Shown here in pieces: positions 16,628 to 51,219 of a stretch of DNA of 64,000 nucleotides. Under the pieces are notes generated by a model. That model saw only the letters and a program-made list of their open reading frames with translations, was not told where the DNA came from and did not search any database. Within the stretch, counting starts at the first letter, position 1, and each line of letters begins with the position of its first letter. Origin of the DNA: Cymodocea nodosa (taxonomy: Eukaryota > Streptophyta > Magnoliopsida > Alismatales > Cymodoceaceae). The DNA lies in NCBI GenBank assembly GCA_036874045.1, contig CM072342.1:7710501-7774500 (forward strand), written 5' to 3'. The position numbers and the translations under genes are program-made.

Positions 16628-16664
16628 AAGGTTAATCCTTCATAAGATTTAACCATCTGGATTT

Positions 16665-20495: not shown

Positions 20496-20502
20496 AGTTA
20501 TA

Positions 20503-20520
20503 TGGCACCGTTGCTAGGGA
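20503..20520 (+). promoter_or_regulatory. Athila-type primer-binding site
   Basis: TGGCACCGTTGCTAGGGA lies seven bases after the LTR. It closely resembles the TGGCGCCGTTGCCGGGGA site common in plant Athila/Tat gypsy elements, with C-to-T or G-to-A type differences. Confidence 0.85.
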
Positions 20521-20619
20521 ATTGAATTGAATTGAACTAAATTGAATAGATATAAGCAACTGTTAGAGCTGTTTCATTTTAATAGTCAGAGTTGTGTGTT
20601 TTCTTCTATAATTGAGAAT

Positions 20620-25234: not shown

Positions 25235-27395
25235 ATGACACTCGAGGCAGAAGATCAGAAATACAACAAGAGAGAAAGAGCTACAGAAGGTAGAATCAGA
25301 ACTTTTCAATTTCAGAAGAGATTTAGTAGATTTGGGTATACAAATACCTCAAATAATGGAAACACGAATCAGAATAGCAACATGAATAGCTGTAAGCAAG
25401 GAAAGACAAATAAGGCCAAGTAATGAAGTTGCCCTAGAATTAATCCAACGTAAGTCTCGGCTTTGGTTCAAAAGATGAATCTGTAGATGAGCTAAATGGG
25501 TGATCTGGGAGCAAGAAAGGAAAGAAAATGAAGAAGAGGCAGTTGAAGGACAAGAGGAGCCGACTGTTGAAAGACCTGTTTCTGAGGAGCAGCAGCTTAG
25601 ACCTTCAGTTCCACCATTTAAGCCGTTGGCACAAGTAGAAATGATGGGGCCTTCGATTGAAGAAGAAATAAGAGAATTTGCAGAACTGGTTCAAGTTGGG
25701 AAGAACCAAGGAGAATCAAAAGATTTGGTAGTGGCCAAAGTACACCTAGTGTTTGATGCACTTTACAAAAAGAGGGCTACAGAAAAGTTGAAAGCCCAAT
25801 ATAAAATCATAGTGGAACAGCATCACGTAGCTACTGCTAGAACTGTTGCCAAACCTGCTGCAAAAGGAGATGAAGCTGGTCCTTCGAGACCAGTAATTAT
25901 AGGAAAAGTTAAACAGGAAGAGCCAGTACTTGTGGCTCGAAGGCCTGCAGAGCCTACTTTTGTAGATTTAATTTCAGAAGATGAAGAGGAAGAACAGGTA
26001 CAACTAATCAGAAAAAAGAAAGGAAAAGAAAAAGTGCCTGAATTTGAGGAAATTAAATCTGAAGTACTAATTTTTACAAGGCCTGTGGAGCAGATTTTTA
26101 TTGACCTGCTATCCAATTTTGAGGAGGAGCAAGAGGAGCAAAGAAAAGAAAAAAATCAGGCTGAAATTAGTCTGTAGCTTGTACAAGAAGAAATAGAAAG
26201 TAGGGTAGAAACTGAATTGCCCATGACTCCATCCCAATCTGTTATAGAATCAGAAAGAACAGTAATAGAACAGATTGGTAGTCAGGAGGAGCAAGAAAGA
26301 GCAGAAAATGAAGAGGCTGAAAGAAGCCATTTGGACAAAAATAATTTCACAGATTCCACTGAAGAGCAAGAGACTCTTCAGCAAATTATGGAAAGAATTC
26401 AAGAAAGAGTGGAGAGTTCTGCCGGCTCACCACCACAGACAGAAGCAAAAGCAAAAATTCAGGAATCTGAAGAGAATGTCCAAATGCAACTTATGCTAGA
26501 GGAAGATCAAGAACAAACCCCTCAGGAGCAACAAAGTCACCTTCCTGACCTGACTGAAACAATAATTTTGAATGAAGTACATTTTAGTAGTCAGGAAGCT
26601 TATACCAAATATCAAGAAATAAAGGGTTACGATATTATTTATAGTAGACCAGTAAATTGGGATGGAATGCAAGAAATCAAAGATCTATTTGAATTCCAAG
26701 GTCTACTGCAATTCATTTCACAAGAGAGAGGGCATGCAATATATGAAAATTTAGTACCCTGTTTTTATGCTAATTTGAGAGAAGGAGAAGGATGATTAAT
26801 TTCAAACGTGGAGGAAGCTGATGTACAGATAACACCAGAGCTTCTCCATAATATTTTTGGATTAAAGAATGAAGGAATAACAATTTTGGAAGATACAACT
26901 GCAGTTGAATGGACTGAACAGCAAATTAAGGATTGTTTAGCTATCAATCTTGGTGTGCCATTATTAAATAGATTGAAGCATTTAAATGGTAAAGCACATA
27001 TGGTAGCTAACATTCTAATTAAGAATGTCTATCAACGACAGGGCCATGACATAGAATTAAGTCAATTTGTCAAATGGGCCACATATGCAGTTGTAAATAA
27101 GATCCAAATAAATTGGTCTGTAGTTTTTATCTCTAAGCTGAAAACAGTGAAGAAGAAATTATTTTATGGAGATTTGATTCCACTACTGATGGTGGACTAT
27201 ATTGATTTCACGAAATGGACATCAAAAAGGATTAGATCAAGAACCATTTTAGTGAAAGAATACAGAAATTTTGTAGCTACAAAACTAGTTATACCTTCTA
27301 GAGGAATTATAGGAGCAGTAGAGAGAATTAATCAATTAGAGCTTCAATTAGAAAAACTCCAGAAGGAAGTAGATGAACTTAGGCATAGAGATTAA
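25235..27395 (+). pseudogene. Athila A ORF3 (putative plant transposon protein)
   Basis: The main frame runs from about 25500 to 27395, with stops at 26175-26177 and 26793-26795 (GGA in copy C, TGA here). A basic N-terminal segment is at 25235-25423 in another frame. The first 400 residues are Glu/Gln-rich and low complexity. The C-terminal 270 are globular: YDIIYSRPVNWDG, LLQFISQERGHAIYE, LVPCFYANL, ITPELLHNIFGL, then a coiled-coil end. The FYANL region matches the Putative plant transposon protein family (PF20167) that follows integrase in Athila elements, sometimes called env-like. I see no signal peptide or membrane segment, so an envelope role is not supported. Function unknown. Confidence 0.82.
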
Positions 27396-27686
27396 ATTGT
27401 ATTGTTCGTATACTTATGTAAAGTTGTATGAAATTGTATGATGTACTTGTAATTTAATTGATTCATATTAATGAATATAATTTTTCAGATGCAATTTTCA
27501 TACGTGTTTTGGATGTGAAATGAATGGAATTTATTGAATATTATGTCATTGTGGAACTTTATGAATGAATATGTAACAGATTTACAATTTGCTAAATGGC
27601 AGGATAATTGCTTAAAAATTTCTACATGTTATAAGGTAAAATGTAAATTTTGCATAAAATAAAATGACCTGCAAGTTAAATCTTTA
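27396..27686 (+). other. Non-coding sequence after ORF3 (A)
   Basis: Aligns with the reverse complement of copy C at about 45450-45790 (for example GATTTACAATTTGCT and CTGCAAGTTAAAT). In C it leads on to gag. In A it stops at about 27686, where LTR sequence starts, so gag and the F-box gene are deleted. Confidence 0.75.
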
Positions 27687-28912
27687 TATCACGCAGGGAA
27701 AGAAATCATCGCCGTTGATAAGAATGAAGGAAATCCAACCGACCATTCAAGCGGAAGCAGTTACTACTGAAGAAATATAAAAGAAAAGAAGAAAAAAGAA
27801 GTGTGTGATTGATGTAAGGTCAGTGTGTGCAGAGGAGGATCGACGTCACAATTCTCTAAAGTACCACACCAACCATCATCATCACTAGCACAATCACTAA
27901 CCATCGGGTCGATTAGCCAAACATAGTGCCTGACAATCACTGTGAGGAGTGATCGCGTCGCGGGAAGGGAAGCCATTTTCACCAAGCGCCGACTCATATT
28001 TTAGGAGATCGTAAAGCTTTTAGCCTTGGCTTCGAGTTGATGCCTGTATGCTGAAGAGGAGATCATCTTGCAATTCTGGACTCGCGATTCTATAGGGAGA
28101 AGAGACAGGATTGTAAGTGGTTTAATTTTTAGGGGTGTAATCGCGTTGCAAGTAGTGTCGGAAGTATTTACTGTCTAGTGAGATTACTTTACATTTCACC
28201 TATCGCCCATTTCCATGTTCATATTAAAACAAAAATACCAAAAACAATTTATCTATGTTTGTATGTTGTATTGTTTGTGTTGTATCGTGATTAATGTTAT
28301 CTTTGTCAGTGTTGTGATTGTTTTATGTTTATTTTAGATTTACAGTTTACTGAAATTGGGTTCGTTCAAAAGACTTAAAGATTTTAATGGTTACTGTTTG
28401 AATTATCTAAATGTTAGTATTGCTTAATGATAAATCCAATGTTAACTAGCATTAAAGAGCTTAATTAATGTTATTTACAATCTGTGGAATCACCCAATGG
28501 TTGGCCGAATTCCTCTGTAAATACTAGTATTAAAAAGAAAAGTCAAGCTCGTGGAGTTAACTTAAGTCCACGAGGTTAGTCCGTTGAGTTAGCCATAACT
28601 CAACGAACTTAGCCCGTTGAGTTAACTATAAGTCAACGGAGAGCTTATTGAATATATAAATTTGATTGTTAACAAACAAACAGTTCTCAAGTTCGTCTTT
28701 AATTCCTTGTGGGATCGACCTGTAGTTGCACATTGATACAATAGACACTGTGCACTTGCAGTTAAAATACAAATTGGAATTAATATCTAAATTGTATTAA
28801 AGGTTGTTTGTTTACTTCTAAAAGAAAGAATAGGCATAAAGATAAATTAATTAAGTAAAACAGAAGTAACAAATCCAAGTTTTTCTAGTGTAGTGCTGGG
28901 AAAAACCAAACA
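27687..28912 (+). mobile_element. Athila A, 3' LTR, 5'-truncated
   Basis: Starts within the LTR at TATCACGCAGG (compare 36064) and ends AACCAAACA. The first roughly 800 bases of the LTR and the polypurine tract are missing. It contains the CGTTGAGTTA array at 28550-28645. The right flank GTACC differs from the left flank TGTGG of A and lies in copia LTR sequence rather than copia pol. Confidence 0.88.
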
Positions 28913-29817: not shown

Positions 29818-30216
29818 TGTTTAGAATGAAAAAGTGCATATTATTAACGGTTAAATGATGGTTAATTGCATAATATTTAGCTTATCATATGAGAATTAAG
29901 CCATTATGTTATAATTGCACTGTTATATGCTTCAATTGAAGAATCTGCTTAATTTTGAGGAATTAATGTTAATTTAGTACATTTATGAACTGTCGGTAAG
30001 TTGTAGGCTGTGAAATTCTTAAGTATCCGAATTTTCTGATATTTCAGACAGTTATGTTTAACATACCGAACAAATTTGGACAGTTATGTTTAACAGATCG
30101 AATATGTATCGGATAGTTATGTTTAAATTGTCAAACAGTTATGTTTAGAGAGAATATTTTATTATTTCCAGATGTACACGTGTTGAAACCAGAATGAATG
30201 TCTTAAGTGAATTTTC
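29818..30216 (+). mobile_element. Athila-like element B, 5' LTR fragment
   Basis: First 399 bases of the LTR from TGTTTAGAATGAAAAAG, then an abrupt join at GAATTTTCGGACACGAC to the interior at the position corresponding to 20690 in A. The rest of the LTR, the primer site and half of the zinc knuckle are deleted. The join lies at a short shared GGA/CGG. Confidence 0.88.
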
Positions 30217-31585
30217 GGACACGACATTTCTGATTGTTTGAAATTGAGACATTTAAAGATTGTTAGATACCATGAACAACAAATGAATTATCCTCAATAT
30301 AATAGAGCCGAGTAAGAGAATCCTATAGTTTACCGAACTGATGGTCAGTATAGAATGTGTAATATGATGAGAGACACTGAAGTTTGGGATAACTATGACA
30401 GACTGGAGCATAGTATAGAGCAAAATCTGGACAAACTGGAATACTTTGTGTGTCAACAACAAGAAGTCAACTGATTAAACTATAAGGAGGCATATTCAGA
30501 ACCTAAACAGGATATAATTTTCGAAACTGAAAAAGCCATAAAGAAAATTGATCAAAAATTGAATGCAATGAAATTAGATGATCTAGAAACAAAATTAAAA
30601 GCATTAGACAAAAATGCAATGAAAATACAAGCTTTGCAACAGGATAATGAAAATTATAATGTTATAAACTTGCACAACTTGCAAAATATATAACAAACAG
30701 AAAACACTAATGTAAGAGAATTTAAAGAATGCACTTTAAAACTAAAAATAATTGAAGATCATAATCACGAAAATGATATACAAAAACATCATGAAAGTAA
30801 CGAAAATCTGGAAGATGTATGTGTAACATTAAGATCTGGAACTGATATACCCCCCAAGAACTCAAAATGAAAATGATATGAAGGTGGACAAGAGTAAAAA
30901 TCAAAATGATAATGAAAATGTAATAGCTGAAAATCTAGAAATCACTCAAGAACATTCTGAATCTGCAATTGAAGCTAAAAATGATCAAACAAATCAACTG
31001 AAAGAAAAAGAGTCTTTGAAATCAAAATCTTTAGCACCCTATCCTGAAAGATTACAATAAACAATTCCTGAAAAACAAGAAAAAATCAGAGAAATTTTTG
31101 AAAAAGTACAAGTTAACATTCCTTTGTTAGATCTACTGCAGAATATGCCATCTTGTGCTAAATTTCTGAAGGATTGGTGTACTAAGAAAAGAGAGCGAAA
31201 AGTTCTTAGAAAGGTCTTTTTAGCTGAGCAAAGTAGTTCTTTATTTCTGCCACAAATTCCTAAAAAGTTATCTGATCTTGGAATCCATGTTATATCATGC
31301 ACCATAGGAAATACCATTCTAGAAAGAACCTTAATAGACTTAGGTGTAGGTATAAATGTTATGCCCAGTGATATATTTGCATCCTTAGGATTAGAAGGCT
31401 TAACTCCTACTAGTAAGGTTATTCAATTAGCTGATAGAAGTATAAGATACCCTAGAGGAAAAATAGAGGATGCCTTAATTAAAATTAAGAATTTTATATA
31501 TCCTATTGATATTGTAATTTTGGATTTCCAAAAAATTAAGCATAAAAATAGTGATACATCTTTAATTTTGGGAAGGCTATTTATG
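30217..31585 (+). pseudogene. Athila B: zinc-knuckle ORF remainder and protease
   Basis: Aligns closely to A from GHDISDCLKL through TLRSGT, PYPERLQ and the protease LIDLGVGINVMPSD to ILGR. Stops differ from A (about 30313, 30475, 30691 and 31058, the last two TAA for CAA). An extra base in a C-run near 30852 shifts the frame. At about 31585 the protease joins directly to the middle of gag (YEGIDVSTKSLLES), removing RT, RNase H, integrase, ORF3 and the gag N-terminus. Confidence 0.87.
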
Positions 31586-32260
31586 AAGGCATAGATGTTT
31601 CAACGAAATCTTTATTAGAATCTACTTGTCAAAATGGATTTTTAAAATTATGTAGTGAAGAAGCATGGGCATATTTAGAAAATTTTGCAAAAAGAACTAT
31701 ACAGTGGGAAAATTCGGTTGAAGCTATTGCAGATAAAAGATTATTGCCAAGAGGAATGCATGAAATAGATTCCAATACTATGCTTGAGGTGAAATTAAAT
31801 GAATTAACAAAGAAAATAGAAGAGTTATCATTAAATCAAAAGCTAGCAGAAAAGAATACAAACATAAATGACTTAGATATTATTTATGCTAGAAACCAGA
31901 GAGATAACTTGGGAAATTCTTATAATTCTAATTGGAGAAATCACCCGAATTTATCTTGGAGAAACAATAATTTCTAGGGAGGAGAAAATATAAATGAGAA
32001 GAACATAAGTTATGAAGTATTAATTGAACAAGGAGCTAGAATAGAGAAATTAGAAAAGATAATCCAACAAGTAAACAATCGTCTAGAATTTATATTTGGA
32101 AATGCTGCAAATCAAAATCGGAATAGAAATATATCACTTAGATAGAAGGAACCAATGGAAGTTAGACCTACTGGAGGATTGCCAATACAAGCTATACCTA
32201 ATCCTGTCAATAGAACGGTTAATGAAATTGATACCTCTTCTAGGAGGGCAGCTGAATGAA
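31586..32260 (+). pseudogene. Athila B: gag C-terminal half
   Basis: Encodes DVSTKSLLESTCQNGFL, EEAWAYLENFAKRTIQWENS, a coiled-coil region, then the Athila gag landmark NWRNHPNLSW and VRPTGGLPIQAIPNP. It matches copy C at 43450-44130. In ordinary Athila elements this block lies upstream of protease; here it follows it. No zinc knuckle lies between the coiled coil and NWRNHP. A stop (TAG) follows WRNNNF at about 31978. Confidence 0.87.
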
Positions 32261-32309
32261 GCAGCATATCTGAAGCAACTATCTATATGTATATGTGTTT
32301 TATTTTAAG

Positions 32310-32390
32310 TTAATAGTATCGTAGAGTTAATTTTTAACTCAACGAACTTAGTCTGTTGAGTTATGCCTTAACTCCACGAGGGTGTGCAGT
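32310..32390 (+). repeat. Palindrome array between gag and F-box gene (B)
   Basis: Hairpin arms GTAGAGTTA / TAACTCAACG and CTGTTGAGTTA / TAACTCCACGAG. The same array lies at this junction in copy C (43313-43385). Confidence 0.75.
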
Positions 32391-32447
32391 AGTTATGTTA
32401 ATTTTTGTCTCTGCTAAATTTTTGTTTGTGTTTTACAGAATCGACAA

Positions 32448-33587
32448 ATGAAATTAATGCAATTACCGTTGGATGCACTAAGGGAAATACTAAGTAACTT
32501 GTCAGCTAAAGATCTGTGTAGGCTGTGTTGTGTATCAAAGGAAATTAAAGATTGTATTGAAGAAAAATATTTTCAAGGACTACAAGCTGCAAAAATGACT
32601 AAGATTAGAGATGGATTCATATGGAGGTCATTTAATCATAGTTCAAATACCCATGAATATCTGGCAATGGAAGAAACTACTGGAATTCCACCCAATGCAT
32701 TAAAAGGAATGAGTCATATTATGGGGATAGATGAAGGATTAATCATATAGAAGACGAGACCAAGGTATGCAAGTTTATCATTACCTAATATTTTGATAAG
32801 AAATCCTATAACAGGAGAAGAATGGAATATAGGAAAACCTAATAGATTTGAAGCACCAACTGTAAATTATGGGTCAACTTTAATATTTTCTAATAAAAAT
32901 TCTGCAATTTCTGAAAAATTATATTATTGGAGACTTATAGGAAATTGGGGTGAAGATTTATGCTTAAGTGTGTATAATTTTCTGAACAAATCTTGGAATG
33001 AAAACATTATAATATATCTAGGACAGAAATCATTAATTAACCAAACACATGTCATACTTAATGGATATATCTATTTAGTCATGGAGATATTATTAGCATA
33101 TGGATCTGATTTATACATAGTGAGCATAGACAGTTATGATGATTATATAGAAATTTTGCCTATATCGAGTGAAATAGCTAAACCACCATCTGCAGAATTT
33201 AATGAAATTCAAATAGGAATGTGGTATAATGAAGAAGATGATCCTACTTTATGTCTGATAAGATGGTGGGATGAACTAATGAAATTTCAAATATAGATTA
33301 TGGAAGACATGAATGAATGGAAGTGGCAAGAGGAGTATATTGAAATAGAGGTAGAAATAGAAACTGCTACATTACCCTGGAACCAAAAAGAATCCCTTTC
33401 TGCATTACATATCATTAATGGTAATACACTCGTATTTGGAATTTATAATATATTGCATGTTTACAAATTAAAAAGGAACAAGAACTGCATTAAAACAGAA
33501 TTAATAACAAAAAGAACTATGCCTAAAAAGTTTGCTTGGACTGATACATTTATTCCATTTGTTTCTACTTTTCAATCATGTTCTTAA
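32448..33587 (+). pseudogene. Athila B: F-box protein gene
   Basis: The frame starts at ATG 32448. Residues 5-41 (LPLDALREILSNLSAKDL, then CVSKEI...EKYF) are a clear F-box, the motif that binds SKP1 in SCF ubiquitin ligases. The rest resembles F-box-associated domains: ILIRNPITGEEWNIGKPN, DLYIVSIDSYDDYIEIL, WWDELMKFQI. Stops at 32748-32750 and 33294-33296 interrupt a single frame that otherwise continues to 33587 (about 380 codons, a normal length for this class). Copy C has TAT at the first position, and a different stop (TGA against TAG) at the second, suggesting an ancestral TGG. An acceptor-like TTTTACAG ends at 32438, ten bases before the ATG. Target unknown. Confidence 0.87.
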
Positions 33588-35361
33588 GCTGTGATTTTGT
33601 GTGTTTAACGTGTGTATTCTGCATTTATTTTTAGAAAAAAAAGAAGAAGGAATTTTGAAGTTTTTCATGTTCATTTTATAAAAAAAAAAAACAAACAAAA
33701 CAAAATATCAATCCAGTTTGTTGGTATTTGTTCTGGGAAACCAACTGGCTTGCTTGTGAGCCACCAAAGGCATAGGAGCCTGGGTTCCCCACAAGACACT
33801 GATTTATTAATATCTGTTAAATGTTATTTTGTTTTATATTCTGTATTTATCTGGGAATGAAAAGCTTTTTAGAATCAAAAATTAGAATATGCAGAAAGAG
33901 ATACAAATGGAACAAGGTATGCAACCAATTACTTATCCTGAATTTTAAATCAAACAAAACTTTATTCATGCCTGCTACAATTACTGTACTTATTATCAAA
34001 TCTTTTACATTGAGGACAATGCAAAATGTAGGTATGGGGGGAGGTAATTAAAGTAACAGCCATGTAAGTTTGTTAATTAAAGGAATTAAAATGGTACTGT
34101 AAAGTTTTGAGGAAATTGAAAATTTTTATGAACTTGCTGTAACTATCCGATAATTGGGACTATAAAATTTTTATAAACTGCTTGAATGTTATATTTAGAA
34201 GGCTATAGAAGATGCTATAGAATTTATTATTTATGTAAATCTAGATATAGTATCTTATGATTTTTCTGAATTTCATGAGTTTAACAGTTTCACGATTTTA
34301 AAATGAAATCAGAATATTTAATGCTTAATCAGAAAATTATCTGAAGTCCTGAAGTAGGTGAGATGTGAATTCTAGATTAAATGAAACACATATGATGAAA
34401 GATACATTTACTTTGATTGATTGAACTCGTAGAGTGATTTATGTGTAGTTCTTATTAAACTACAGATAAAGTATGAGCTTATTGTTATGGATTCATATTT
34501 TTAGTAAATGATAGAAGCAGGATTATATGAGATTGGTGTTTTACTACATCTGTATTAATGAAATACATGCATATACAGTATGTGATTAATGCTTTGTTTT
34601 GTGTGTGCATTTATTTTTAGAAAAAAAAAAGAAAAAAAAGAACTTTTTTTTGAGAGTTTATTGACTTGTTTGATCATGAGCCTCTTGTACTTGAGCAGAT
34701 AGGTATGTAAGTATTGTTGACCTGAAAAAGGACTCTGAAAATCTGGCAACCTAAGATCCTGATCAGATCTGGGATTGTTGATTGAAAGCTCGTTACATGG
34801 GTACATTAGAAAGCTCTTGTATGATTCAAGCTTGTCAAATTAACTTTTAAAGTACATAAAAAAAAAGAAGGAAAAAAACATATACTATTCTGAAAAGATA
34901 CAAGTGTTTTGTGAAATACAGATATCTTATGAATCGAGTATATTTTCTGTTATCTAGAATTGCTGAAATATGAATCTGGAATTGACTTTTGAAGTTGTTT
35001 AATGGAAATACAATTCTTTATTCTACTTGTCTTAATCAGATTGAATTGGATTGTACTTTGATTCGTATGTTGTTGAAATTTCTTCTAGAAAACTTATTGG
35101 AAAATTCAGGATTATAGATGATGAAAAGAAGAACAAACGATAATATAATTAACACCTCTATGTAGATGATATACTTTGTATGTAATTTACATATATTCTA
35201 AATATCTTTGCAGGTTGATTACTGAAACATACAGAATATATGTTTATGCTAAACAGAAGAAAAAAACAAAAGGGGAAGAATTAATTCTAGCACTTTTTGA
35301 AAGACCAATTAATTAGATCTTAGTTTGCTAAGGGACTAGCAAAATTTAGGTAAGGGGGAAG
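33588..35361 (+). other. Athila B 3' non-coding region with two polypurine tracts
   Basis: Conserved with copy C over most of its length. 33715-33790 is a GC-richer block with short hairpins (GGCT...AGCC, AGGC...GCCT). 34010-34045 has GAGGACAATGCAAAATG followed by GGTATGGGGGGAGG, a typical gypsy 3' signature, 1.3 kb before the LTR. 34660-34810 is another conserved block. 35320-35361 has GGGACTAGCAAAATTTAGG and TAAGGGGGAAG directly before the LTR, the true plus-strand primer. Small frames here are not called as genes. Confidence 0.75.
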
Positions 35362-37374
35362 TGTTTAGAATGAAAAAGTGCATATTATTAACGGTTAAAT
35401 GATGGTTAATTGCATAATATTTAGCTTATCATATGAGAATTAAGCCATTATGTTATAATTGCACTATTATATGCTTTAATTGAAGAATCTACATAATTTT
35501 GGAGAATTAATGTTAATTTAGTACATTTATGAACTATCGGTAAGTTGCAGGCTGTGAAATTCTTAAGTATCCGAATTTTCTGATATTTCGGACAGTTATG
35601 TTTAACATACCGAACAAATTCGGATAGTTATGTTTAACAGACCGAATATGTATCGGATAGTTTTGTTTAAATTGTCGAACAGTTATGTTTAGAGAGAATA
35701 TTTTATTATTTCCAGATGTACACATGTCGAAACCAGAATGAATGTCTTAAGTGAATTTTCGGTGAGTTAGGTGTAACTATCTGAAAACGCATCTGAGCAT
35801 CGGATAGTTATACCTGTAACTCTCCAAAATGTTATTTTATGTTTAAACTGCTGCTGACACGTGTCGAGATCTGGTAGATTTACTTAAGTTATAACTCGTT
35901 AAGTTAGCATAACTGTATGCGTTGAGTTACATGAATATATAATAAGGTAACGCGTTAGGTTAGCGGCTTATTTCTTTATTGCATGTATTTTATAGTTATT
36001 TTCTAAAATGCCACTATAGCGGTTGTAGGAACAGACAGTTGGAAGGAAAAACCACGTTTGCACGTATCACGCAGGAATTCAATCGCGCATGGAGAAGGAA
36101 GCATCGCCGTTGATCTAAAGGAAGGAAATTCAACCGATCATTCAAGTAGAAGCAGTTACTATTGAAGAAATATAAAAGAAAAGAAGAAAAAAAGAAGAAA
36201 GTGTGATCGATGGACAACTAGTGTATACAGAGGAGGAGCACCGAGCTTTCTGCAGACAATATCGGTGATTCTCTGAAGTATCACACCAACCATCGTTATC
36301 ACCACCATAATCACCAATCATCGGAGGTCTGTGAGGATACTTGCCTGATGTCGGGACGATTTCGAGCCAAACACAGTGCCTGACAACCACTGTGAGGAGT
36401 GATCACGTCGTGGGAAGGGAAGACATTTTCACCAAGCGCCGACTCATATTTTAGGAGATCGTAAAGCTTTTAGCCTTGGCTTCGGGTTGATGCCTGTATG
36501 CTGAAGAGGAGATCATCTTGCAATTCTGGACTTGCGATTCTATAGGGAGAGGAGACAGAATTGTAAGTGGTTTAATTTTCAATTGTGTAATCGCGTTGCA
36601 AGTAGTGTTGGAAGTATTTACTGTCAAGTGTGATTACTTTACATTTCACCTTTCGCCCATTTCCATGTTCACATCAAAACAAAAATACCAAAAATAATTT
36701 ATCTTTGTTTGTATGTTGTATTTGAGTGTTGTATTGTTTGTGTTGTATCGTGATTAATGTTATCTGTATCAGTTTTATGATTATTTTATGTTAGTTTTAA
36801 TTTTACAGTTTACTGAAATTAGTTCGTACAAAAAACTTAAAGATTTTAATGGTGACTGTTTGAATCATCTAAATGTTAGTATTGCTTAATGATAAATCCA
36901 ATGTTAATTAGGATTAAAAAGCTTAATTGATGTTATTTACAATCTGTGGAATCGCCCAATGGTTGGCTGAATTCCTCTGTAACTAGCAGTATTATAAAGA
37001 AGAGACAGGCTCGTGGAGTTAACTTAAGTCCACGAGGATAGTCCGTTGAGTTAGCCATAACTCAACGAACTTTGTCTGTTGAGTTAACTGTAACTTAACG
37101 GAGTGCTTATGGAATATAAATTTGAATTGTTCACAATCAAATATTTCTTAAATTCGTCAGCAATTCCCTGTGGGATCGACCTGTACTTACACATTGATAC
37201 AATAGACACTATGCACTTGCAGTTAAAGTATAAATTGGAATTAATATCTAAATTGTATTAAAGGTTGTTTGTTTACTTCTAAAAGAAAGAATAGGCATAA
37301 AAATAAATTAACTAAATAAAAATAGAAGTAACAAATTCAAGTTTTTCTAGTGTAGTGCTGGGAAAACCCAAACA
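35362..37374 (+). mobile_element. Athila-like element B, 3' LTR
   Basis: 2,013 bp from TGTTTAGAATGAAAAAG to CCCAAACA, followed by the target duplication ATAAC (37375-37379, matching 29813-29817). It shows palindrome units at 35590-35830, the conserved CTGAAGAGGAGATCATC block at 36500, and the CGTTGAGTTA array at 37010-37105. The first 400 bases are nearly identical to 29818-30216. Confidence 0.93.
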
Positions 37375-38260
37375 ATAACCTTCCGAAATTTAAGTCAGCC
37401 TTTTATGCACGTGCTAAATTATAATCGGAAAGTTGACAGAATCAAGTATATAATTGTTCAGTGAGTTATAGTTATAGGTATTCGATTGGATGACAGCTCA
37501 CATTTAAATATTTTGGAATCCTACCTGGCAGTAAAGGATAAGTGATCTTTCGGTGAGTTATAATTACTATTCGGAGTGTTGCATAGCTAACTATCTGAAA
37601 GAACAAGAAAATTGGTAAGTTGACTTGAAACATTTTTCTGAACGGTCACTTGCCGTATTGGGACTTGATCCTAATCAAGTATAGTAGAATACATCCGTTG
37701 GAGGAAAATATGATCGTTGTACATATCAAGTATATATTCAAAATACAGGCAACAGATATACAATAGAGATATACAGTGAGCTACACTCGAATTCCATCCA
37801 TACTCAAGTCTGCAAACAGTGAAGAACATTCAGAAGATCCATTGTAGAAAAAGCTCTTGCGCCAAAACTTTGATTGAAGGTTTAAAGCTGTTGGTTTGTG
37901 GCTTCAACTTGAAAGCTACATATAGTGTTGGTTTGAGTTTTGACTTGAAAACTCTAGAGGTTGGTTTACTGAAGTTTTTACCTGAAAACTTCTGTGTAGT
38001 TGGTTCTTGCTTTGACCTGAAAGCAAGTGTGTAAGTGTTGAAACACTTAGTGAAGCCCAAGTAAACCTTGGGGGTGGACTAGCCAATTTGGTGAACAACC
38101 TAAAAATTTGCTGTGTGTTTCTTATCTCTGTTAATTTGCATTATATCAGTTTCATCTCATTTCATTTTTTGTTGAATCATTCGATTCAACATTTAAAGAA
38201 TTTCAAAAATACACACTTTCACCATTCACCCCCCCTCTAGTGAGCCTATTGATCCTAACA
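37375..38260 (+). mobile_element. Copia LTR (probably D1 3' LTR), part 2
   Basis: Continues 28913-29817 after removal of B and aligns to 15710-16613 with few differences. It ends CCCCCCCTCTAGTGAGCC..GATCCTAACA. Directly after it, at 38261, comes a short Athila LTR piece, so this copia LTR end lies inside an Athila LTR. Confidence 0.88.
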
Positions 38261-38271
38261 GTTTTTACTAT

Positions 38272-40413
38272 TGTTTGGGTTTAGCTTTAGGCAGCACTAG
38301 AAAACTTGTTTAGTTCACAGGTAGCATCGCTAGAAAAACTTGTTGGGGTTTTGCTTTAGGCAGCACTAGAGAACTTGTTTAGTTCACAAGTAGCATCACT
38401 AGAAAACTTACATTTGTTAACTTCTATTTTTACTTGATTAATTTATCCTTGTGCTTATATCAATAATTTCCTTTTAGAAGTAAACAAACAACCTTTCACA
38501 CAAATTAGTTATTAATTCCAATTTGTATTTTAACTACAAGTGCATAGTGTATGTTGTATTTGTGTGCAAGTACAGGTCGATCCCATAAGGAATTGATTGA
38601 GAATTGTGTACTGTTCTATTTTTTTATTATACTTAATGTGTTCAGTAATCACTCCATTGAGTTACAGTTAACACAACGGACTAAGTTCGTAGAGTTATGG
38701 CTAACTTAATGGACTAATCTCATGGATTTAAGTTAACACCACGAGCCTATCTTTCCAATTTAATACTACTATTTACAGAGGAATTCGGCCAATCATTGGG
38801 CGGTTCCACAGATTGTAAATAACATCAATTAAGCTCTTTAATGTTAGGAACATTAGATTTATCGTTAAGCTATACTAACATTTAGATATTTCAAACGGTA
38901 ACCATTAAAATCTTTAACTATTTTGAATAAATTCAATTTCAGTAAACTGTAAAAGTATTATCTATTTTTTTGAAATCAAACAAACATAAAACATTCACAA
39001 TACTGACAATGATAACTTTAATCACGATACAAAACAAATAATACAACACTTAAATACGCAATACAAACACAGATAAGTTGTTTTTGGTATTTTTGTTTTG
39101 AGATGTTCATGAAAGTTGGCAAAAGGTGAAATGTAAAAATTTTCTATCGACAGTAAATACTTTTGTCGCTACATGCTATGCAATTACACAACTAAAAACT
39201 TAATCATTTACAATTCTGCCTCCTCTCCCTATAGAATCGCGAGTCTAGAATTGCAAGATGATCTCCTCTTCAGCATACTGGCATCAACCTGAAACCAAGG
39301 CTAGAAGCTTTACGATCTCCTAAGATATGAGTCAGTACTTGGTGAAAATGGCTTCCCTTCCCGCGACGTGATCACTCCTCATAGTGGTTGTCAGGCACCA
39401 TGTTTGGCTCGGAATCGACCCGACATCAAGAAAGTATCCTCACAGACCTCCAATGGTTGGTGATTATGGTGGTGGTGGTGATGGTTGGTGTGGAACTTCA
39501 GGGAACTTCCAACACTACTTGTAGATAGCTCGGTTTGTCCTCCTCTACACACACATTGGCCACACACCCTTCTTCATCTTTTCTCCTTTTCTTTTATATT
39601 TCTTTAGTGGTAACTACTTCTCCTTAGATGATCGGTTGGATTTCCTTCGTTCATATCAATGATGCTGATTTCTTCTTCCTTCCACGAGCGATATCTTGCG
39701 TGATACGTGCAATTGTGGTTTTCATTTGAATATCCTGTTTCTGTAACTGCTATAGTGGCATATTAGAAAATAAATGGTCCGTGGAGTTACAGATAACTCA
39801 ACGGACTTACTTCGTTGATTTAACTATAAAACACGTGCAATAAAGAAATAAGCTGCTAACCTAATGCATTACCTTAGTGTGTATTCATGTAACTCAACGC
39901 GTACAGTTATGTTAACTTAACGAGTTAAACATGTGCATCTCACGTGATATACTAAAGCATTTAAATTCAACACGTGCATAATTCTAACTTTATGATTACA
40001 AATATTTCGAATACTTAAAAACCTAACTATTCGATGCCTAGATGTATTTCGATAGTTAACAAATAACTTACCGAAAATCCACTTAAGTCATGCATTATGG
40101 TTTCGACATGTGTACTTCAGGAAATAACAAAATATTCTTTAAGCATTTAAAACATAACTATCTGGTACATTAAACATATCTCTCTAAAATAATAGAAAAT
40201 TCGGATACTTAAGAATTTCATAGCTTGCAATTTACCAACAGTTTAGAAATGTACTAAATTAACATTAATTCCCTGAAATTATGCAGATTCTTATATTAAA
40301 GCATATAATAGTGTAATTATAACATAATAACATAATTCTCATATGATAAGTTAAATATTATGCAATTAACCATCATTTAACCATTAATATTATGCACTTT
40401 TTCATTCTAAACA
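38272..40413 (-). mobile_element. Athila-like element C, 3' LTR
   Basis: 2,142 bp on the minus strand, from TTCTAAACA (40413 side) to TGTTTGGGTTTAGC (38272 side). ACTAT at 38267-38271 matches ACTAT at 49510-49514 beyond the other end of C. The 38272-38410 end holds a tandem copy of about 75 bases (GCAGCACTAGA(A/G)AACTTGTTTAGTTCAC twice), an end duplication not seen in A or B. The palindrome array is at 38650-38760. Confidence 0.92.
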
Positions 40414-42164
40414 CTTCCCCCATACTTAAATTTTGCTAATCCTTTAGCAAATTAAGATCTAATTAATTGGTCTTTCTAATTAATTCTTCCTTTTTGTTCT
40501 TCTTTTTAGCATAAGAACTTATATTATTATATAGATATTCTATATGTTTCAGTAATATGTTTTAACATTGTTTTCTCCTCTTCAACCTGCAAATATACTT
40601 AGAATATATGTAAATTACATACAAAATATATCATCATCACATAGGTGTTAATTATATTATCATTTGTTCTTCTTTTCATCATCTGTCATCCTGAATTTTC
40701 CAATAAGATTTCTAGAATAAATTTCAACAACATACGAATCAAAACACAATCCAATTCAATATGATTAAGACAAGTAGAATAAAGAATTGTATCTCAAATA
40801 AACAATTTCAAAAATCTATTCTAGATTCATATTTCAGCAATTTTAGAGAACAGAAAATATACTCGATTCAAAAGATATCTACATTTCACAAAACACTTGT
40901 ATCTTTTTAGAACAGTATATGCATATTTGTACTTTAAAAGTTAATTTGACAAGCTTGAATCATATAAGAGCTTTCTAGTGTACTCATGTATCGAGCTTTC
41001 AGTCAACAATCCCAGATCTAATTAGGATCTTAGGTTGCCAGATCTAAAGAGTCATTTTTCAGGTCAACAATCCTTACATACCTATCTGCTCAAGTACAAA
41101 AAGCTCGTGATCAAACAAGTCAATAAACTCTCAAAGTTTTTTTTTTTTTTTTTTTCACAACACAGTATATGTACGTATTTCATTAATACAAATGCAATAA
41201 AACACCAATCTCATATAGTCCTACTTCTATTATTTACTGAAAATATGAATCCATATCAATAAGCTCATACTTTTTTCTATAGTTTAATAAGATCTACACA
41301 TAAATCATTCTACAAGTTTAATTAGTCAAATTAAATGTATCTTTGATCATATGTGTTTCATTTAATCTAAAAACCAACATTTCAGCTCTTTCAGGACTTC
41401 AGATAATTTACTAAGTTTTAGTTAAGCATTCTGATTTCATTTTAAAATCATGAAATTGTTAAACTCATAAAATTTAGCAACAACATAAGATACTATATCT
41501 AGATTTGTATGAGTAGTAAAATTTGTAGCATCTTATATAAGATTATAAATATAACATTTCAGCAGTTACAGTTCTTTAAAAATTTTGAAGTTTCAATTAT
41601 CAGATAGTTACAGCAAATTCATAAAATTTTTTAATTTCCACAAAACTTTGCAGTACCATTCTAATTCCTTTAATTAACAAACTTACATGGCTGTTACTTT
41701 AATTACCTCCCCCCTATACCTTTGCATTATCCTCAATGCAAAAGATTTGATAATAAATATAGTAATTGTAGCAGGCATGAATATTGTTTCGTTGACTTAG
41801 CATCTAACTCAACAAACTTAATTCGTTGAGTTAATGAATAACTCCATTTAAATCTAAATTCAGGATAAGTAATAAATTACATACCTTGTTTCGTTTGTAT
41901 CTCCTTGTGTATATTTTGATTTTTGATTCTGAAAAACTTTTCATTCATAGATAAAAGTAGAATATATAACAAAATAACATTTAACAGATATTGATAAATT
42001 AGTGTCTTGCGTGGAACCCAGGCTCCTATGCCTTTGGTGGCTCACAAGCAAGCCAGTTGATTTCCCAGAATAGATACCAACAAACTGGATTGATATTTTG
42101 TTTTTTTTTGTTTTTTCTAAAAATAAATGCAAAATACACACAACATTAAAAGCACAGAATTATA
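40414..42164 (-). other. Athila C 3' non-coding region
   Basis: Counterpart of 33588-35361. The polypurine tract TAAGTATGGGGGAAG (minus strand) abuts the LTR at 40414-40428. A second tract with a run of G lies at about 41700-41722. The conserved hairpin block is at 42000-42075. Unlike B, it has a palindrome array at 41800-41860 (CGTTGAGTTA-type arms). A poly-T run at 41140-41160 (poly-A on the coding strand) sits where B has an A-rich tract. Confidence 0.75.
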
Positions 42165-43244
42165 ATTTAAGAACATGATTGAAAAGTAATAACAAATGGA
42201 ATAAACGTGTCAGTCTAAGCAAACTTTTTAGGCATAATTATTCTTGCTATTAATTCTATTTTAATGCAGTTCGTGTTCCTTCTTAATTTGTAAACTTGCA
42301 GTATGTTATCAATACTAAACACAAGTGTATTACCATTAATGAAATGAAATGTAGAAAGGGAAACTTTTTAGGCATTCATTTATGTCTTTCATAATTCATA
42401 TTTGAAATTTCATCAATTCATCCCACCATCTTATTAGACATAACGTAGGATCATCATATTCATTATACCACATCCCTATTTGAATTTTATCATATTCTGT
42501 AGATGGTGGTTTAGCTATTTCTCTCGGTATAGGCAAAATTTCTATATAGTGATTATCATAACTATCTATGCTTACTATGTATAAATCAGATCTCAATGCA
42601 ACTGATATATCTGAGACTAGATATATATATCCATCAAGTATGACATGTATGTTGTTAATTAATGATTTCTGTCCTAGATATATCATAGTGTTTTCAGTCG
42701 AAGATCTATTCAGAAAATTATACACACTTAAGCATAAATCTTCTTCCCAATTTCTACTAGGTCTCCAATAATATAATTTTTCAGGAATGATCGAATTTTT
42801 ATCAGAAAATATTAAAGTTGACCCGCAATTTTCAGTTGGTACTTCATATCTATTAGGCCTTCCTATATTCCATTCTTCTTTTGTGAGAGGATTTCTAATC
42901 AAAATATCAAGTAACAAAATTGCATACCTTGGTTTAGTTCTGTATATAATTAATCCTTCATCCATCCCCATAATATGATCTATTCCTTCTAATGTATTGG
43001 GTGGAATTCCAGCAGTTTCTTCCATATTCAGATATTCATAGCTAATTAAACTACAATTAAATGACTTCCATAAAAATCCATCTCTAATCTTAGTCATTTT
43101 TGCAACTTGTAGTCCATGAAAATATTTTTCTCTAACACAGTCTTTAATATCCTTTGATACACAACACAATTTGCATAGATCTTTAGCTAACAAGTTACTT
43201 AGTACTTCCCTTAGTGCATCTAGTAGTAATTTTATAAATTCCAT
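42165..43244 (-). pseudogene. Athila C: F-box protein gene
   Basis: The open part is 42396-43244 (282 codons). The F-box covers residues 7-41 (LLDALREVLSNLLAKDL, CVSKDI...REKYF); Pro of the usual LP start is Leu here. F-box-associated features match copy B: ILIRNPLTKEEWNIGRPN, LYIVSIDSYDNHYIEILP, WWDELMKFQI. The frame ends with TGA after FQI; past it, homology to the B C-terminus continues to about 42168 (NGNTLVF, MPKKFA, TDTFIPFV) with about 80 bases deleted and further stops. The long open frame shows this copy is younger or better preserved than B over that stretch. Confidence 0.87.
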
Positions 43245-43449
43245 CTGTTGATTCTATATAACATAAACAAAAATTTAGTAGAGATATAACTTAACATAAC
43301 TACTTCACACCCTCGTGGAGTTAGGTCATAACTCAATGGATTAAGTTTGTTGAGTTAAGTAATAACTCTACAATACTATTAACTATAAGTAAACTTACAT
43401 TTTTTTATTTTTTATACATAGTTACTTTAGTTATACTACTTCATTCAGC
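43245..43449 (-). repeat. Gag/F-box junction with palindromes (C)
   Basis: 43313-43385 carries CTCGTGGAGTTA, TTGAGTTA and TAACTC-type arms as in B at 32310-32390. On the minus strand a donor-like GTAAGTTTAC lies at about 43389-43398 and an acceptor-like TTATATAG just before the F-box ATG. This suggests, without proving, a small leader intron. Confidence 0.65.
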
Positions 43450-44740
43450 TACCCTCCCAAAGGAGATATCAATTTCATTAACAGTTCTATTCATAGGGTT
43501 AGGTATTGCTTGTATTGGCAATCCTCCAATAGGTCTAACTTCCATTGATTCCTTTTGTCTAAGTGGTATGTTTTTATTTTGATTTTGAATTGCAGCATTT
43601 CCAAATACAAGATCTAGACGATTGTTTAATTGTTGGTTTATCTTTTCTAATTTCTCTATTCTAGATCCTTATTCAATTAATGCTTCATAACTTATATTCT
43701 TGTCATTTATATTTTCTCCTCAGAAATTGTTGTTTCTCCAAGATAAATTCAAGTGATTTCTCCAATTAGGGTTATAAGAATTCTCAATGTTATCTTTCTG
43801 GTTTTTAGCATAAATAATATCTAGATCATTAATGTTTGCATTCTTTTCTGCTAGTTTTTGATTTAATGATAACTCTTCTATTTTCTTTGTTAATTCAATT
43901 AATTTCACTTCAAGCATAGTGCTTGAATCTATTTCATGCATTCCCCTTGGCAATATTCTTTTATCTGTAATGACTTCAACCGAGTTTTCCCACTATGCAG
44001 TTCTTTTTGCAAAGTTTTCTAAATATGCCCATGCTTCTTCGCTACACAGTTTTAAAAATCCATTTTGACAAGTAGATTCTAATAAAGATTTCGTTGAAAC
44101 ATCTATGCCTTCATAAATTATACCTATTAATTGTGCTTTATTTATTGCATGATGTGGACATTGAGTCAGTAAATCTTTAAATGTTTCAAAATATTTCTAG
44201 AATGATTCTCCCTATTTTTGGCTACACATTAATATTTCCTTTTTCTTTTTAATCGTTTGATGTGTTGGATAATATTTTTCTAGAAAAATTGAGCAAAATT
44301 CAGTCTATGTAGAAATTGAATCAGGCGATAGAGTATATAACCATCTCTTAGCTGTGTCTTTTAAAGCAAAAGGGATATATCTAAGTTTAATAGCATCTAT
44401 ACTCATGTTCGGCATTTTCATCATTTGACAAACTTCGTTAAATTCTCTAAGGAAATAATAGGTATCCTCTCTTTCTAATCCATAAAAATGTGGCAATTGA
44501 TTAATATAATTAGATTTCAGTACAAACCTATCTCCCTCAAAGTTTGGCAATCGAATACATGAAGGTTCATCAACTAATTCAGGATAAAGAATTTCCCCTA
44601 ATGGTTTTTCTATTGGAGCAGCCATATCTTCGTTCTCTTTTAAAGAAAGGTTAGCTACACCCTTAAGGATTTCGTTAAAGTCCAATTCAAAAATGTTTCA
44701 GTACACCTCTATGTTGAATCCTCCTGGATAGGTGTTCTTA
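43450..44740 (-). pseudogene. Athila C: gag (Retrotrans_gag core)
   Basis: The minus strand encodes FNEILKGVANLSLKEN, INQLPHFYGLEREDTYYFL, REFNEVCQMMKM, AIKLRYIPFALKDTAKRWL (classic Retrotrans_gag core), then TFKDLLTQCPHH, EEAWAYLENFAKRT, a coiled coil, NWRNHLNLSW and VRPIGGLPIQAIPNP. Several TAG stops break it (after MCSQK, GESF and AKRTA). Gag builds the particle and binds RNA. It lies downstream of integrase and ORF3 and upstream of the F-box gene, the reverse of the usual gag-pol order. There is no zinc knuckle within it. Confidence 0.9.
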
Positions 44741-45794
44741 CTAATCGTTTAGTACTAGGAGAATGAATCCATGTGCTCATAAACTCTTAACATAAAATAA
44801 AATAACAGAAGATTAATTACGTACCAGTCTGAAGCTTTATATTCAGTAGATAGTTGTTGACAGATGAAGTTGAATCAGTTGCTTCTTCTTCTAGTTCCCT
44901 AACGAATTTTCTTTTCTCAAATGTTGGTAACTTGTAAACAACATTCTGCTCTATATTTATAATGCACATCCATAAAGCAAATAAATCTCGTTGCAAGAAC
45001 GTGTCTTGTAACGTGCAGTATGGTTCCTATTTTTATGGGTACGTGTGCCACTTATAATTTCAAATTTTAGTAACCGCTAAACCTACGAAGTTTTGTTCGT
45101 GGCTAAAAGAATAACCATTTAGCTTAATCCACAAACTAACCTCGTTGAGTTATAGTTAACTCAATGAAGTGACTTTGGTTACTGTTGCTAACTCTACAGA
45201 CTAACTTCGTTGTATTACAGATAACTCAATAGAGTGACCTTATATTCTATTATTGACCTCGTGGAGTTAAGTTTAACTCAACGAACTTACTTCATTGAGT
45301 TAACACTTGGCAAATTTCTAAAACTCACTCCTCGTGCTAACTTCTATGTTTTTTTTTCTCTCCTGCATTCTGTTAACTTAAATAAAGTTAAATACATGTC
45401 ATTAATGCAGCATTCTAATTAAAACTCATTTAAATCTGAATATTATATAAATATTTAACTTGCAGTTCATTTCATGTTATGCAAAATTTATATTTTACTT
45501 TGCAGCATGTAGATATTCTCAAGCATTAATCAATTATCTTTCATTTAATCCTGTCATTCAGCAAATTGTAAATCTTTTAAACAATCTTGCATAATGTTCC
45601 ACAAATTATATAATATTCAATATAGTTCATCTATTTCATCATTCTCAAACATGAATGAAAAATATATCTGAAAAACATATATTCATTAATATGAATAATT
45701 TACATTACAATTAATTAGATATTTTTCATACAAATATATACAAGTACAAGTAGACGAACAATACAATTTTAATATTTTCTCCTAAGTTTATCTA
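44741..45794 (-). repeat. ORF3/gag spacer with palindromes (C)
   Basis: 45115-45305 contains repeated CGTTGAGTTA / TAACTCAA and GTGGAGTTA / TAACTC arms. The part next to ORF3 (45450-45790) aligns with A at 27396-27686. 44741-45110 holds no recognisable gene; it is the leader of gag. Confidence 0.7.
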
Positions 45795-48010
45795 CTTCCT
45801 TTTAGAGTTTTTCTAATTGTTGCTCTAAGTGGTTAATCCTTTCTACAGCTCCTGTAATTCCTCTGGAAGGTTCAACAATCTCTGTAGCTACATAATTTCT
45901 ATATTCTTTCACTGAAATAGTTCTTGATCTGATCTTTTTAGATGCCCATTTCGTGAAATCAATACAGTCCACCATCAGTAGTGGAATCAGATTTCGATAA
46001 AATAATTTCTTCTTTATTGCTTTCAGCTTAGAGATGAAAACTGTAGACCAATTTATCTGAATTCTGTTCACAACTACATATGTGGCCCACTTGACAAATT
46101 AACTCAGTTCTATATCATGGCCTTGTCGTTGGTAGACATTCTTAATTGGAATGTTTGCTATCATGTGTGCTGTACCATTTAGCTGCTTTAGTCTATTTAA
46201 TAATGGTACACTAGGATTGATAGCTAAACAATCCTCTATTACTTGTTCTGTCCACTTGACTGTAGTTGTGCTTTCCAGAATTTTTAGTCCTTCATTCTTC
46301 AATCCAAGAATGTTGTAGAGAAGCTTTGATGTTAACTATACATCAACTTCCTCCACATTGGAAATTAATCCTCCTTCTCCTTCTCTTAAGTTTGCATAAA
46401 AGCAAGGCACTAGATTTTCATATACTGCATGCCCTCTTTCTTTAGAAATAAACTGCAGTAGACCTTGGAACTCAAATAAATCCTTAATTTCTTGCATCCC
46501 GTCCCAATTTAGTAGTCTACTGTATATGATATCATAATCCTTAATCTCTTGGTATTTATCATAAGCTTCCTGACTCCAAAAGTATACTTCATTTAAAATT
46601 GTTGCTTCAGAAGGATCAGGAATATGCATTTGTTGCTCTAGAGGGGTTTGTTCTTGAACTTTCTCTTCCATATGCTGAACTTGTACTTGCTGAAAATGCT
46701 CCACAGATTTCGGCATTTTTGCTTCTACTTTTGTCTATGGTGGTGAGCCGACAGAACTCTCCACTTTGTCTTGAATATTGTCCAAAATTTGCTGAAGAGT
46801 TCTTTGCTCTTTAGTGGAATATGCAAAGTCATCTCTTTCCATATATACTTGTTCAACTTCTTGTTTAGTTTATGTTCTTTCTTCTTCCTCCTGACTACCA
46901 ATCTGCATTATCACTGTTCTTTTTGATTCTGTGGCAGATTGGGATGGAGTTATGGGCAAATCAGCTTCTACCCTAATTTCTGTTTCTTCTTCTTGTATAG
47001 GTTGCAGACTAGTTTCAGCTTATTTTTCTTCTTCTCTTTTCTTTTGCTACTGCTCCTACTCCTTCTTAGAATCGGATAGTAGGTTTATAAAAATTGGCTC
47101 TACAGGCCCTATTGATATTGGTACTTCAGATTTAATCTCCTCTTGATATTCAGGCACTATTTCTTTTCCTTTCTTTCTTCTGATTAATTGTGCCTGGTCT
47201 TCCTCTTCTTCTTTTGAGATTGAATCTACAAACATAGGCTCTACACGCCCTTGAGCCACAAGTACTAGCTCTTCCTGTTTAACTTTTTCCATAATTACTA
47301 GTCTCGAAGGACCAACTTTAGCTCCTCTTGTAGTAGGTCTGGCAGTAGCTTCTTGATGTAGTTCCACTTTGATTTTATATTGGTCTTTCAACTTTTCTAT
47401 AGCCCTTTTTTTGTAAAGTGCATCGAACACTAAGTGTGCTTTAGCCACTACCAAATCTTCTGATTCTCCTTGGTTTTTCCCAACTTGAACCAGTTCTTCA
47501 AATTCTCTTAATTCTTCTTCATTTGAAGGCCTCATAACTAGCACCCTTTCTAATGGTTTAGGAGGTGGATTTGAAGGTCCTGGCTGTTGTTCCTCAAGAA
47601 CAGGTCTTTCAACAGTCGGCTCCTCCTGTTCTTCATTTTCTTTCCTTTGTTGCTCCTATCTAATTTCTCCCCTTGCACAACCAACAATGTTCCTTTTGAA
47701 CCATAGTCGGGACTTATGTTGGATTAGTTCTAGGGCAACTTCATTATTTGGCCTGATTTTTCTTTCTTTACTTACAGCAATTTTCGTAGCTACTTTGATT
47801 CTAGTTTCCATTATTTGAGGGATTTGTATACCCATATCTACTAACTCTTTCCTCCAATAAAAAATGTTAGATTCTACCTTTTGTAGCTCTTTTTCCCTCG
47901 TCGTATTTTTGATTTTCTACCTTGCGTGCCATTTCTCTGAATCTTTCAGAAATTTTGACGTGTCTACTGTCTTTCCTAGAACTCAGGTGTCATCTTCCTC
48001 ATCATGGAGT
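45795..48010 (-). pseudogene. Athila C ORF3 (putative plant transposon protein)
   Basis: Homologous to 25235-27395 in A, broken into open pieces at 47056-47544, 46336-46716, 46099-46302 and 45802-46071. It shows the same landmarks: YDIIYSRLLNWDGMQEIK, LVPCFYANLREGEG, LLNRLKQLNGTAHM, and the C-terminal coiled coil. The GGA codon in GEGG is intact here where A has TGA. The N-terminal third is Glu-rich and heavily interrupted. Confidence 0.82.
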
Positions 48011-48655
48011 TACGCAACGGAACAGAGTCACCTTGATCTGTACTATTCTAAGTTCTAAATAATTCTACGGATAATGCCCTAAAAACCCTAAGTTTAAGTA
48101 TAAATAAACCCTAAGTTTAGGTGGGTAATCGGGTCATTTCCCATACATAACTCTCGCTCTCTCATCCGTTGAATTATGGTTGACTCCACGGACTAAGTCT
48201 GTGGACTTAACTACAGTACTCCGTTGAGTTATAGTTAACTCAATGGATTAAGTTCATTAACTAATCCTAAACTCAACGGAGTAAGTTCGTCGAGTTAAGC
48301 TTAACTCAACGGACTTCTTGTAAAGTTATATCTAATAAAAATACTTAAGATAATAATTTTTCTTCAGTCAAGACCGAAGAGTTTCCAGTCTAACCGCTCT
48401 TACTTTTTCCATATTTTAGAAATTCTTCGGTCAAACTGTTATATTCCTCGGTTGAACTAAAATTAAATATTTTCTTTCTTTTTTCATTTTTTTTCTACTG
48501 GTTGAATCGATACTATGCTTCGGTAAAATCAACATTTTTACTAAATAATATATAGACTTTTTTATGTTTTTATGTTTCGGTCAGACCGATGGATCCTATC
48601 GGTTGAACTGCAATGATATATTTTTTTTATATTAAATAAAAATGACTTCTTACTA
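48011..48655 (-). repeat. Palindrome arrays between integrase and ORF3 (C)
   Basis: 48165-48320 has CGTTGAGTTA / TAACTCAACG hairpins. 48360-48620 has the GGTT-N-AACC type (CGGTTGAACT, GGTCAGACCG, TCGGTCAAACTG). Same order and place as 24640-24990 in A, but with more units. Confidence 0.8.
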
Positions 48656-51167: not shown

Positions 51168-51169
51168 AT

Positions 51170-51181: not shown

Positions 51182-51219
51182 AAAGTTGATCTCATTAATA
51201 GATTTAACCATCTGAGATC

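Follow-up and report, generated by a model that had tools for sequence, protein, structure and literature searches.

A conserved, probably spliced F-box gene in an Athila-like retrotransposon family of Cymodocea nodosa with its capsid gene behind pol

In the parts of the source covered, the plant retrotransposons Athila, Calypso and Diaspora are described as encoding gag, protease, reverse transcriptase (RT) and integrase in a single open reading frame (ORF) with gag first (PMC1142308). Here we describe an Athila-like Ty3/gypsy family, represented by three elements (A, B and C) in a stretch of 64,000 nucleotides of Cymodocea nodosa (contig C14, GenBank CM072342.1, positions 7710501-7774500 of a 374.6-Mb genome; hereafter the window, whose own positions are used below). 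This family has long terminal repeats (LTRs) of great length and a CX2CX4HX4C zinc finger in common with Athila, Calypso and Diaspora, and an additional ORF behind integrase in common with Athila and Calypso, as these are described in the same passages (PMC1142308); in contrast to all three, it has its capsid downstream of both integrase and an env-like ORF, with an F-box gene following. Bagy2-type plant LTR elements, in the part of the review covered, likewise have a sense ORF between pol and the 3′ LTR that is likely reached by splicing, but that ORF is env-like in Bagy2, whereas here it encodes an F-box protein and the removed intron would hold the capsid ORF (PMC7264820). A Gypsy family of Phalaenopsis with an AlkB-type RNA demethylase ORF is also a large family keeping a captured enzyme-like gene that may act on host control; its domain is a different one, and the passages on it mention no displaced capsid (PMC9289625). 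F-box proteins of plant parasites are described in viruses: polerovirus P0, which brings about AGO1 loss, and the Clink protein of nanoviruses, which acts on the cell cycle. By analogy, the present family would be another plant parasite genome encoding an F-box protein, although P0 and Clink sit in RNA and single-stranded DNA viruses (PMC3588083, in the parts covered).

It is very likely that the F-box gene is a resident of this element family, is under selection and is expressed by splicing. Elements B and C have the order gag, F-box, spacer and 3′ LTR in common, and their parts in the window are as follows.

29818..37374, plus strand: element B, a deletion derivative, with target duplication ATAAC at 29813-29817 and 37375-37379
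29818..30217, plus strand: element B, 5′ LTR remnant, first 400 nt, 96.0% identical to the start of the 3′ LTR
30217..31594, plus strand: element B, gag linker and protease region, equivalent to 20689-22053 of element A (Asp_protease_2, E-value 0.0021, below the cut-off)
31579..32259, plus strand: element B, capsid (gag) ORF, broken and represented by its 3′ part
32260..32438, plus strand: element B, spacer with the splice acceptor of the F-box gene at its end (TTTTACAG)
32448..33587, plus strand: element B, F-box gene (Pfam PF00646) with stops at 32748 and 33294
35362..37374, plus strand: element B, 3′ LTR
38272..49509, minus strand: element C, a deletion derivative, with target duplication ATAGT (ACTAT on the plus strand) at 49510-49514 and 38267-38271
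49021..49509, minus strand: element C, 5′ LTR remnant, 93.3% identical to the start of the 3′ LTR
45445..49021, minus strand: element C, integrase end and env-like ORF region
44951..44961, minus strand: element C, TATA-like box (TATAAATATAG) ahead of the leader exon, a putative promoter
43254..44824, minus strand: element C, putative intron 1, from donor GTACGT at 44824 to an acceptor AG whose last base is 43254; intron-less copies lack precisely the corresponding stretch
43441..44780, minus strand: element C, region of the capsid (gag) ORF, which is interrupted by stops; the Pfam match was obtained on open copies elsewhere in the family
42396..43244, minus strand: element C, F-box ORF (Pfam PF00646) of 282 residues with an early TGA end
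38272..40413, minus strand: element C, 3′ LTR

The initial annotation of this stretch had placed an F-box protein in both B and C and had argued from their differing target duplications that the gene moved with the element. Both points held: PF00646 matched B at 32448-32747 (E-value 1.7e-11) and C at 42399-43244 on the minus strand (E-value 7.4e-6), and the duplications are ATAAC in B and ATAGT in C. The ORFs it had drawn, 32448-33587 in B and 42165-43244 in C, required correction, since B is not one open frame and the frame of C ends at 42396, its tail being shortened and out of frame. Codon 283 is tryptophan in 21 of 25 copies, a stop in L011 and arginine in L013; because it is TAG in B and TGA in C, the two F-box genes of the window broke separately. 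Besides B and C, all eight family copies scanned carry PF00646 at the N-terminus, and a frame of 378-379 residues is open in 12 of the 25 copies read full-length and likewise in L032. When the genome was searched with the C protein, at least 138 matches were obtained (the best 138 of 6250 candidates scored, a lower bound) with 84-100% identity over all or nearly all 282 residues, so that the recurrence of the gene exceeds chance. The C protein had no match in a protein homologue collection that is probably poor in plants (381 candidates), the PDB sequence search gave nothing useful, and no relative was found in genome-contig and viral-contig collections.

The neighbourhood of the gene was read in 20 loci of about 10 kb fetched around F-box matches. 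The capsid stands directly before the F-box in 18 of these, although L019 and L025 have just part of it, and the remaining two loci, L013 and L028, show the intron-less junction described below. An env-like ORF lies ahead of the capsid in 14 of the 20, and in 15 the spacer leads into a 3′ LTR on the same strand. Six further loci were taken from a capsid search (best 150 of 5247 candidates) at places outside the listed F-box matches and thus blind to their neighbours; all six contained the F-box, one of them interrupted by an LTR insertion, and five had the env-like ORF before the capsid. These loci speak against the F-box as a nested gene outside the element, a possibility we had considered. 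LTRs, target duplication, protease, RT, RNase H, integrase and capsid were all found in the family, although the Pfam matches of the protease are weak and below the cut-off (E-values 0.0021 and 0.00065). The Kimura two-parameter distances between paired LTRs were 0.042 for B, 0.070 for C, 0.063 for L017, 0.059 for L024, 0.080 for L027 and 0.138 for L016; if each site changes at 1.3e-8 or 7e-9 substitutions per year, the elements would be about 1.6 to 10 million years old.

In order to measure selection, the ratio of nonsynonymous to synonymous change (omega) was calibrated with the substitution spectrum of the element's own spacer in 19 copies (L025 was dropped, and B and C were not included). 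The omega of the F-box protein was 0.51 (0.42-0.65), with 0.43 for the F-box motif, 0.54 for the body and 0.55 for the C-terminus, and that of the capsid was 0.45 (0.35-0.59, 15 copies). As controls, the spacer frames gave 0.87, 1.03 and 0.94 and the spacer in reverse 1.02, while the F-box gene read off-frame gave 0.77 (0.62-0.95) and 1.18 (0.95-1.49); the contrast is clearest against the spacer because the first off-frame control is itself below 1. Omega was higher in near pairs (0.59) than in far pairs (0.48), a difference that post-insertion decay of the copies would produce. The raw Nei-Gojobori (NG86) dN/dS had a median of 0.38 over 25 copies, lower for distant pairs, and 0.35 in a second run; it was dropped as the headline value since noncoding spacer read as coding gives 0.48 by the same method. 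Taken together, these results show that the F-box gene changes less than the element's own noncoding DNA. The initial annotation had named as the contrary case an F-box confined to these two copies with dN/dS near 1; what was found is at least 138 copies, an F-box in six of six capsid-picked loci and an omega of 0.51, and that case fails because the gene belongs to the family and is conserved.

Two of the fetched loci, L013 and L028, lack exactly the stretch from a donor (donor 1) to the acceptor before the F-box start, and the ends of this stretch fall on GT and AG. In unspliced copies donor 1 reads CTTCAGACT(G/A)^GTATGT and the acceptor TACAG^AATC. The capsid ORF lies within this GT-AG intron: its start is some 45 nt downstream of donor 1, and its end precedes a second donor (donor 2, CAACTATTT^GTATGT) that shares the same acceptor. 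The second, shorter intron, between capsid and F-box, is absent from L036 (reverse strand 3985-4070). When a 180-nt probe across the L028 junction was used, at least 40 matches were obtained (the best 40 of 4215 candidates, L028 included) and 40 of 40 span the junction, a figure that counts joined copies and is not a ratio, because the probe itself was joined; L013 is outside these 40 listed matches. Five further joined copies were read, and all agree in the junction, although the donor side of one has diverged. With the L036 probe (the best 40 of 2599 candidates, L036 included), 13 of 40 matches span the junction and 27 of 40 break at probe position 97-100. The loss of exact GT-AG intervals suggests that spliced RNAs were reverse transcribed, and the intron-less copies likely stem from them. 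A TATA-like box lies about 130 nt ahead of donor 1, and because the capsid ORF is inside the intron behind this box, one unit could yield capsid from unspliced RNA and the F-box protein from spliced RNA. The F-box gene would thus likely be expressed by splicing, as is retroviral env. The intron-less copies would be a genomic record of past splicing, so that part of this model can be checked by sequence alone.

The capsid ORF belongs to Retrotrans_gag (E-value 1.4e-17 in L027 and 4.3e-17 in L032), and the complete order is seen in one contiguous copy, L029 followed by L017, which reads from the 5′ LTR through the zinc knuckle region, protease, RT, RNase H, integrase, env-like ORF, capsid, F-box and spacer to the 3′ LTR. 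Gag and pol in one ORF with gag first, the arrangement of Athila, was not found here. Pfam matched only RVT_1, RNase H and rve in the pol region; the env-like ORF had no Pfam match and owes its name to its place after integrase and ahead of the 3′ LTR. In element A, which belongs to this family, the end with capsid and F-box is missing and the 3′ LTR is partial.

18646..28912, plus strand: element A, with LTR, zinc knuckle, protease, RT (partly deleted), RNase H, integrase, env-like ORF and partial LTR
20536..20820, plus strand: element A, 5′ ORF piece with the CX2CX4HX4C zinc knuckle directly after the LTR
22306..24573, plus strand: element A, RT, RNase H and integrase
25491..27395, plus strand: element A, env-like ORF, named by position, without Pfam match

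Element A (window 18646-28912) is nested in a copia-type element. The gap between the LTR and the protease region is about 200 nt in four of four places (A, L012, L016 and L029), which is too short for a capsid. The CX2CX4HX4C zinc knuckle was found in the 5′ ORF of A, of L016 and of a diverged relative, L030, and in none of four capsid ORFs. Three of the six 5′ ends tested, those of B, L012 and L029, did not match the strict pattern, although L029 matches the zinc knuckle region of A by protein similarity. In the relative (L030, reverse strand 2419-6704), which has about 60% identity in the integrase, the zinc knuckle heads its ORF and no capsid match lies upstream within the 2.4 kb covered. 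The initial annotation was thus right that the F-box sits between gag and the 3′ LTR, but it missed that this gag is without a zinc knuckle, lies behind pol and precedes an F-box probably set up for splicing. Such a split gag is surprising, since LTR elements are basically built with gag ahead of pol, an order that contributes to setting the ratio of capsid to enzyme; a capsid-last family would have to set this ratio by promoter and splicing. In A, L012 and L016 the sequence that follows the LTR may be a primer site of the tRNA-Asp type, and the LTR tail (for example L016 at about 850-960) contains repeats with a unit of about 30 nt similar to the primer site.

Both structural features could have a simpler origin. 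The intron-less copies might be chance deletions, and other deletions are plentiful (their junctions are at 30217 and 31579 in B and at 49021 in C); the joined rows are also clustered on the tree of the gene (6 of 500 shuffles as low), and because of this clustering much of the joined-copy count is descent, so that one old deletion copied many times would explain part of it. However, the missing stretch is bounded by GT and AG in the copies read, the second donor shares the same acceptor, and on a tree of 31 F-box rows the seven joined copies need four label changes, at least three of them forced by well-supported branches, while 0% of 200 bootstrap trees need just a single change. Three label changes could equal one gain and two losses, but the loss of the joined state would need the intron to be regained and would therefore require recombination with another copy. 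We consider chance deletion extremely unlikely. Similarly, the capsid-last order might have come about locally, by rearrangement of two elements that had fused, and the functional elements of the family might be built otherwise. Element fusions can arise through template switching, and B and C are both rearranged; for B, we had considered that protease before gag was a local rearrangement and rejected this, as other loci show that it is the family order plus deletion. Against a fusion, the same order recurs in loci on many contigs and in the contiguous LTR-to-LTR copy, no capsid lies between LTR and protease in the four places, and the relative that is about 60% identical in the integrase also begins at the zinc knuckle. 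Fusion is thus very unlikely as well.

For the product, the sequence points to a predicted SCF (SKP1-cullin-F-box) adaptor, whose F-box would bind SKP1 and whose body would choose the target. The TATA box ahead of the leader exon would start a 3′ transcription unit whose unspliced RNA would give capsid and whose spliced RNA would give the F-box protein; the latter is predicted to bind SKP1 and to send a host protein for destruction, most likely a silencing or defence factor. The best explanation overall is therefore a resident, selected and likely spliced F-box gene whose protein would serve as an SCF adaptor degrading a host protein, and we give it a probability of roughly 0.5. RNA silencing and DNA methylation keep plant LTR retrotransposons in check, and few of these elements are known to carry genes against such control. 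Counter-defence or counter-silencing would be the most likely use of the protein, a suggestion by analogy that we make tentatively. A fuller model is doubtful: gag would have been taken apart, with the nucleocapsid, protease and pol at the 5′ end and the capsid in a 3′ unit with its own promoter, splicing would pick either capsid or an F-box protein turning the SCF ubiquitin ligase of the host on RNA silencing (a counterpart of P0), and the intron-less, capsid-less copies would be natural parasites. If true, an F-box protein aimed at the host would add a novel type of weapon to those of such elements, and a high-copy family that keeps a selected F-box gene offers a direct handle, namely to find the binding partner of the protein. 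Non-canonical domains have been screened for in 121 angiosperm genomes, with 15 retained after filtering; the section that treats these domains lists no F-box, and 'f-box' occurs 0 times in the main text (PMC9289625). The parts covered of reviews on extra ORFs (PMC7264820), gene capture (PMC13317346) and Retand (PMC11963269) mention no F-box element, with 'f-box' occurring 0 times in the latter two, and the titles and abstracts listed from open-licence PMC papers, with the passages covered, showed no F-box LTR retrotransposon and no capsid-after-pol element.

The gene might instead be cargo, transduced once from the host and since then just replicated along with an element to which it is of no use. 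Plant LTR elements commonly capture genes, in the parts of the reviews covered (PMC7264820, PMC13317346), and many copies are broken: about 34 of the 138 listed rows are free of stops within the 282 residues (by hand count), and the B-C pair alone, with a raw dN/dS of 0.61, shows no selection. But the interval around the omega of 0.51 is under the spacer controls, the value is close to that of the element's own capsid, and all six capsid-picked loci carry the gene, which makes cargo unlikely. Another use would lie in the element's own cycle, the F-box protein setting the amount of capsid or polymerase or aiding assembly or nuclear steps and not fighting host defence. Capsid and F-box in one unit, likely under one splice choice, would suit a regulator of capsid supply, but the known parasite F-box proteins target host proteins in the passages covered (PMC3588083); we regard this use as possible though doubtful.

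Besides the broken copies and the B-C pair, several observations weigh against the degradation of a host protein by a selected and spliced F-box gene. The 20 loci were mostly picked from stop-free rows (19 of them), and the interval of the frame +1 control (0.77, 0.62-0.95), itself below 1, has a slight overlap with that of the F-box protein. Of 18 unspliced loci, 5 no longer have the acceptor AG, nor do L031 and L032. Strict patterns found donor 1 in 13 of 27 rows and the TATA box in 16 of 27; the rows without a strict match are mutated, deleted or missed. The protein body matched FBA_1 at an E-value of 0.044 in three of eight copies and nothing firmer, and the AlphaFold model (C with pieces of B) had a predicted local distance difference test (pLDDT) score of 31 and was not used. 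Counter-silencing, for its part, is an argument from analogy.

No close host donor gene was seen among the listed F-box matches. At least 14 of the best 150 PF00646 matches (of 4220 candidates) are known element places, by hand, and the listed matches are likely crowded for this reason; counts of F-box genes in this genome are likely inflated by the element copies. An FBA_1 search of the own genome gave 0 of 31 candidates, and was uninformative since its control likewise matched nowhere. As a contrast, one other F-box gene was read; it is of kelch type and unrelated (At3g26010-like plant F-box propeller family, E-value 3.5e-9).

Elsewhere in the window, which is densely filled with plant-type elements, Ty1-copia elements, which we take to be SIRE-like, lie as nested or inverted pieces at 15994-18645, 50879-55131 and 57693-62257. 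An open piece at 8638-8982 on the minus strand presumably resembles a Harbinger-type transposase, and at 13834-14542 on the minus strand overlapping open frames rich in serine, histidine and proline probably represent a repeat array.

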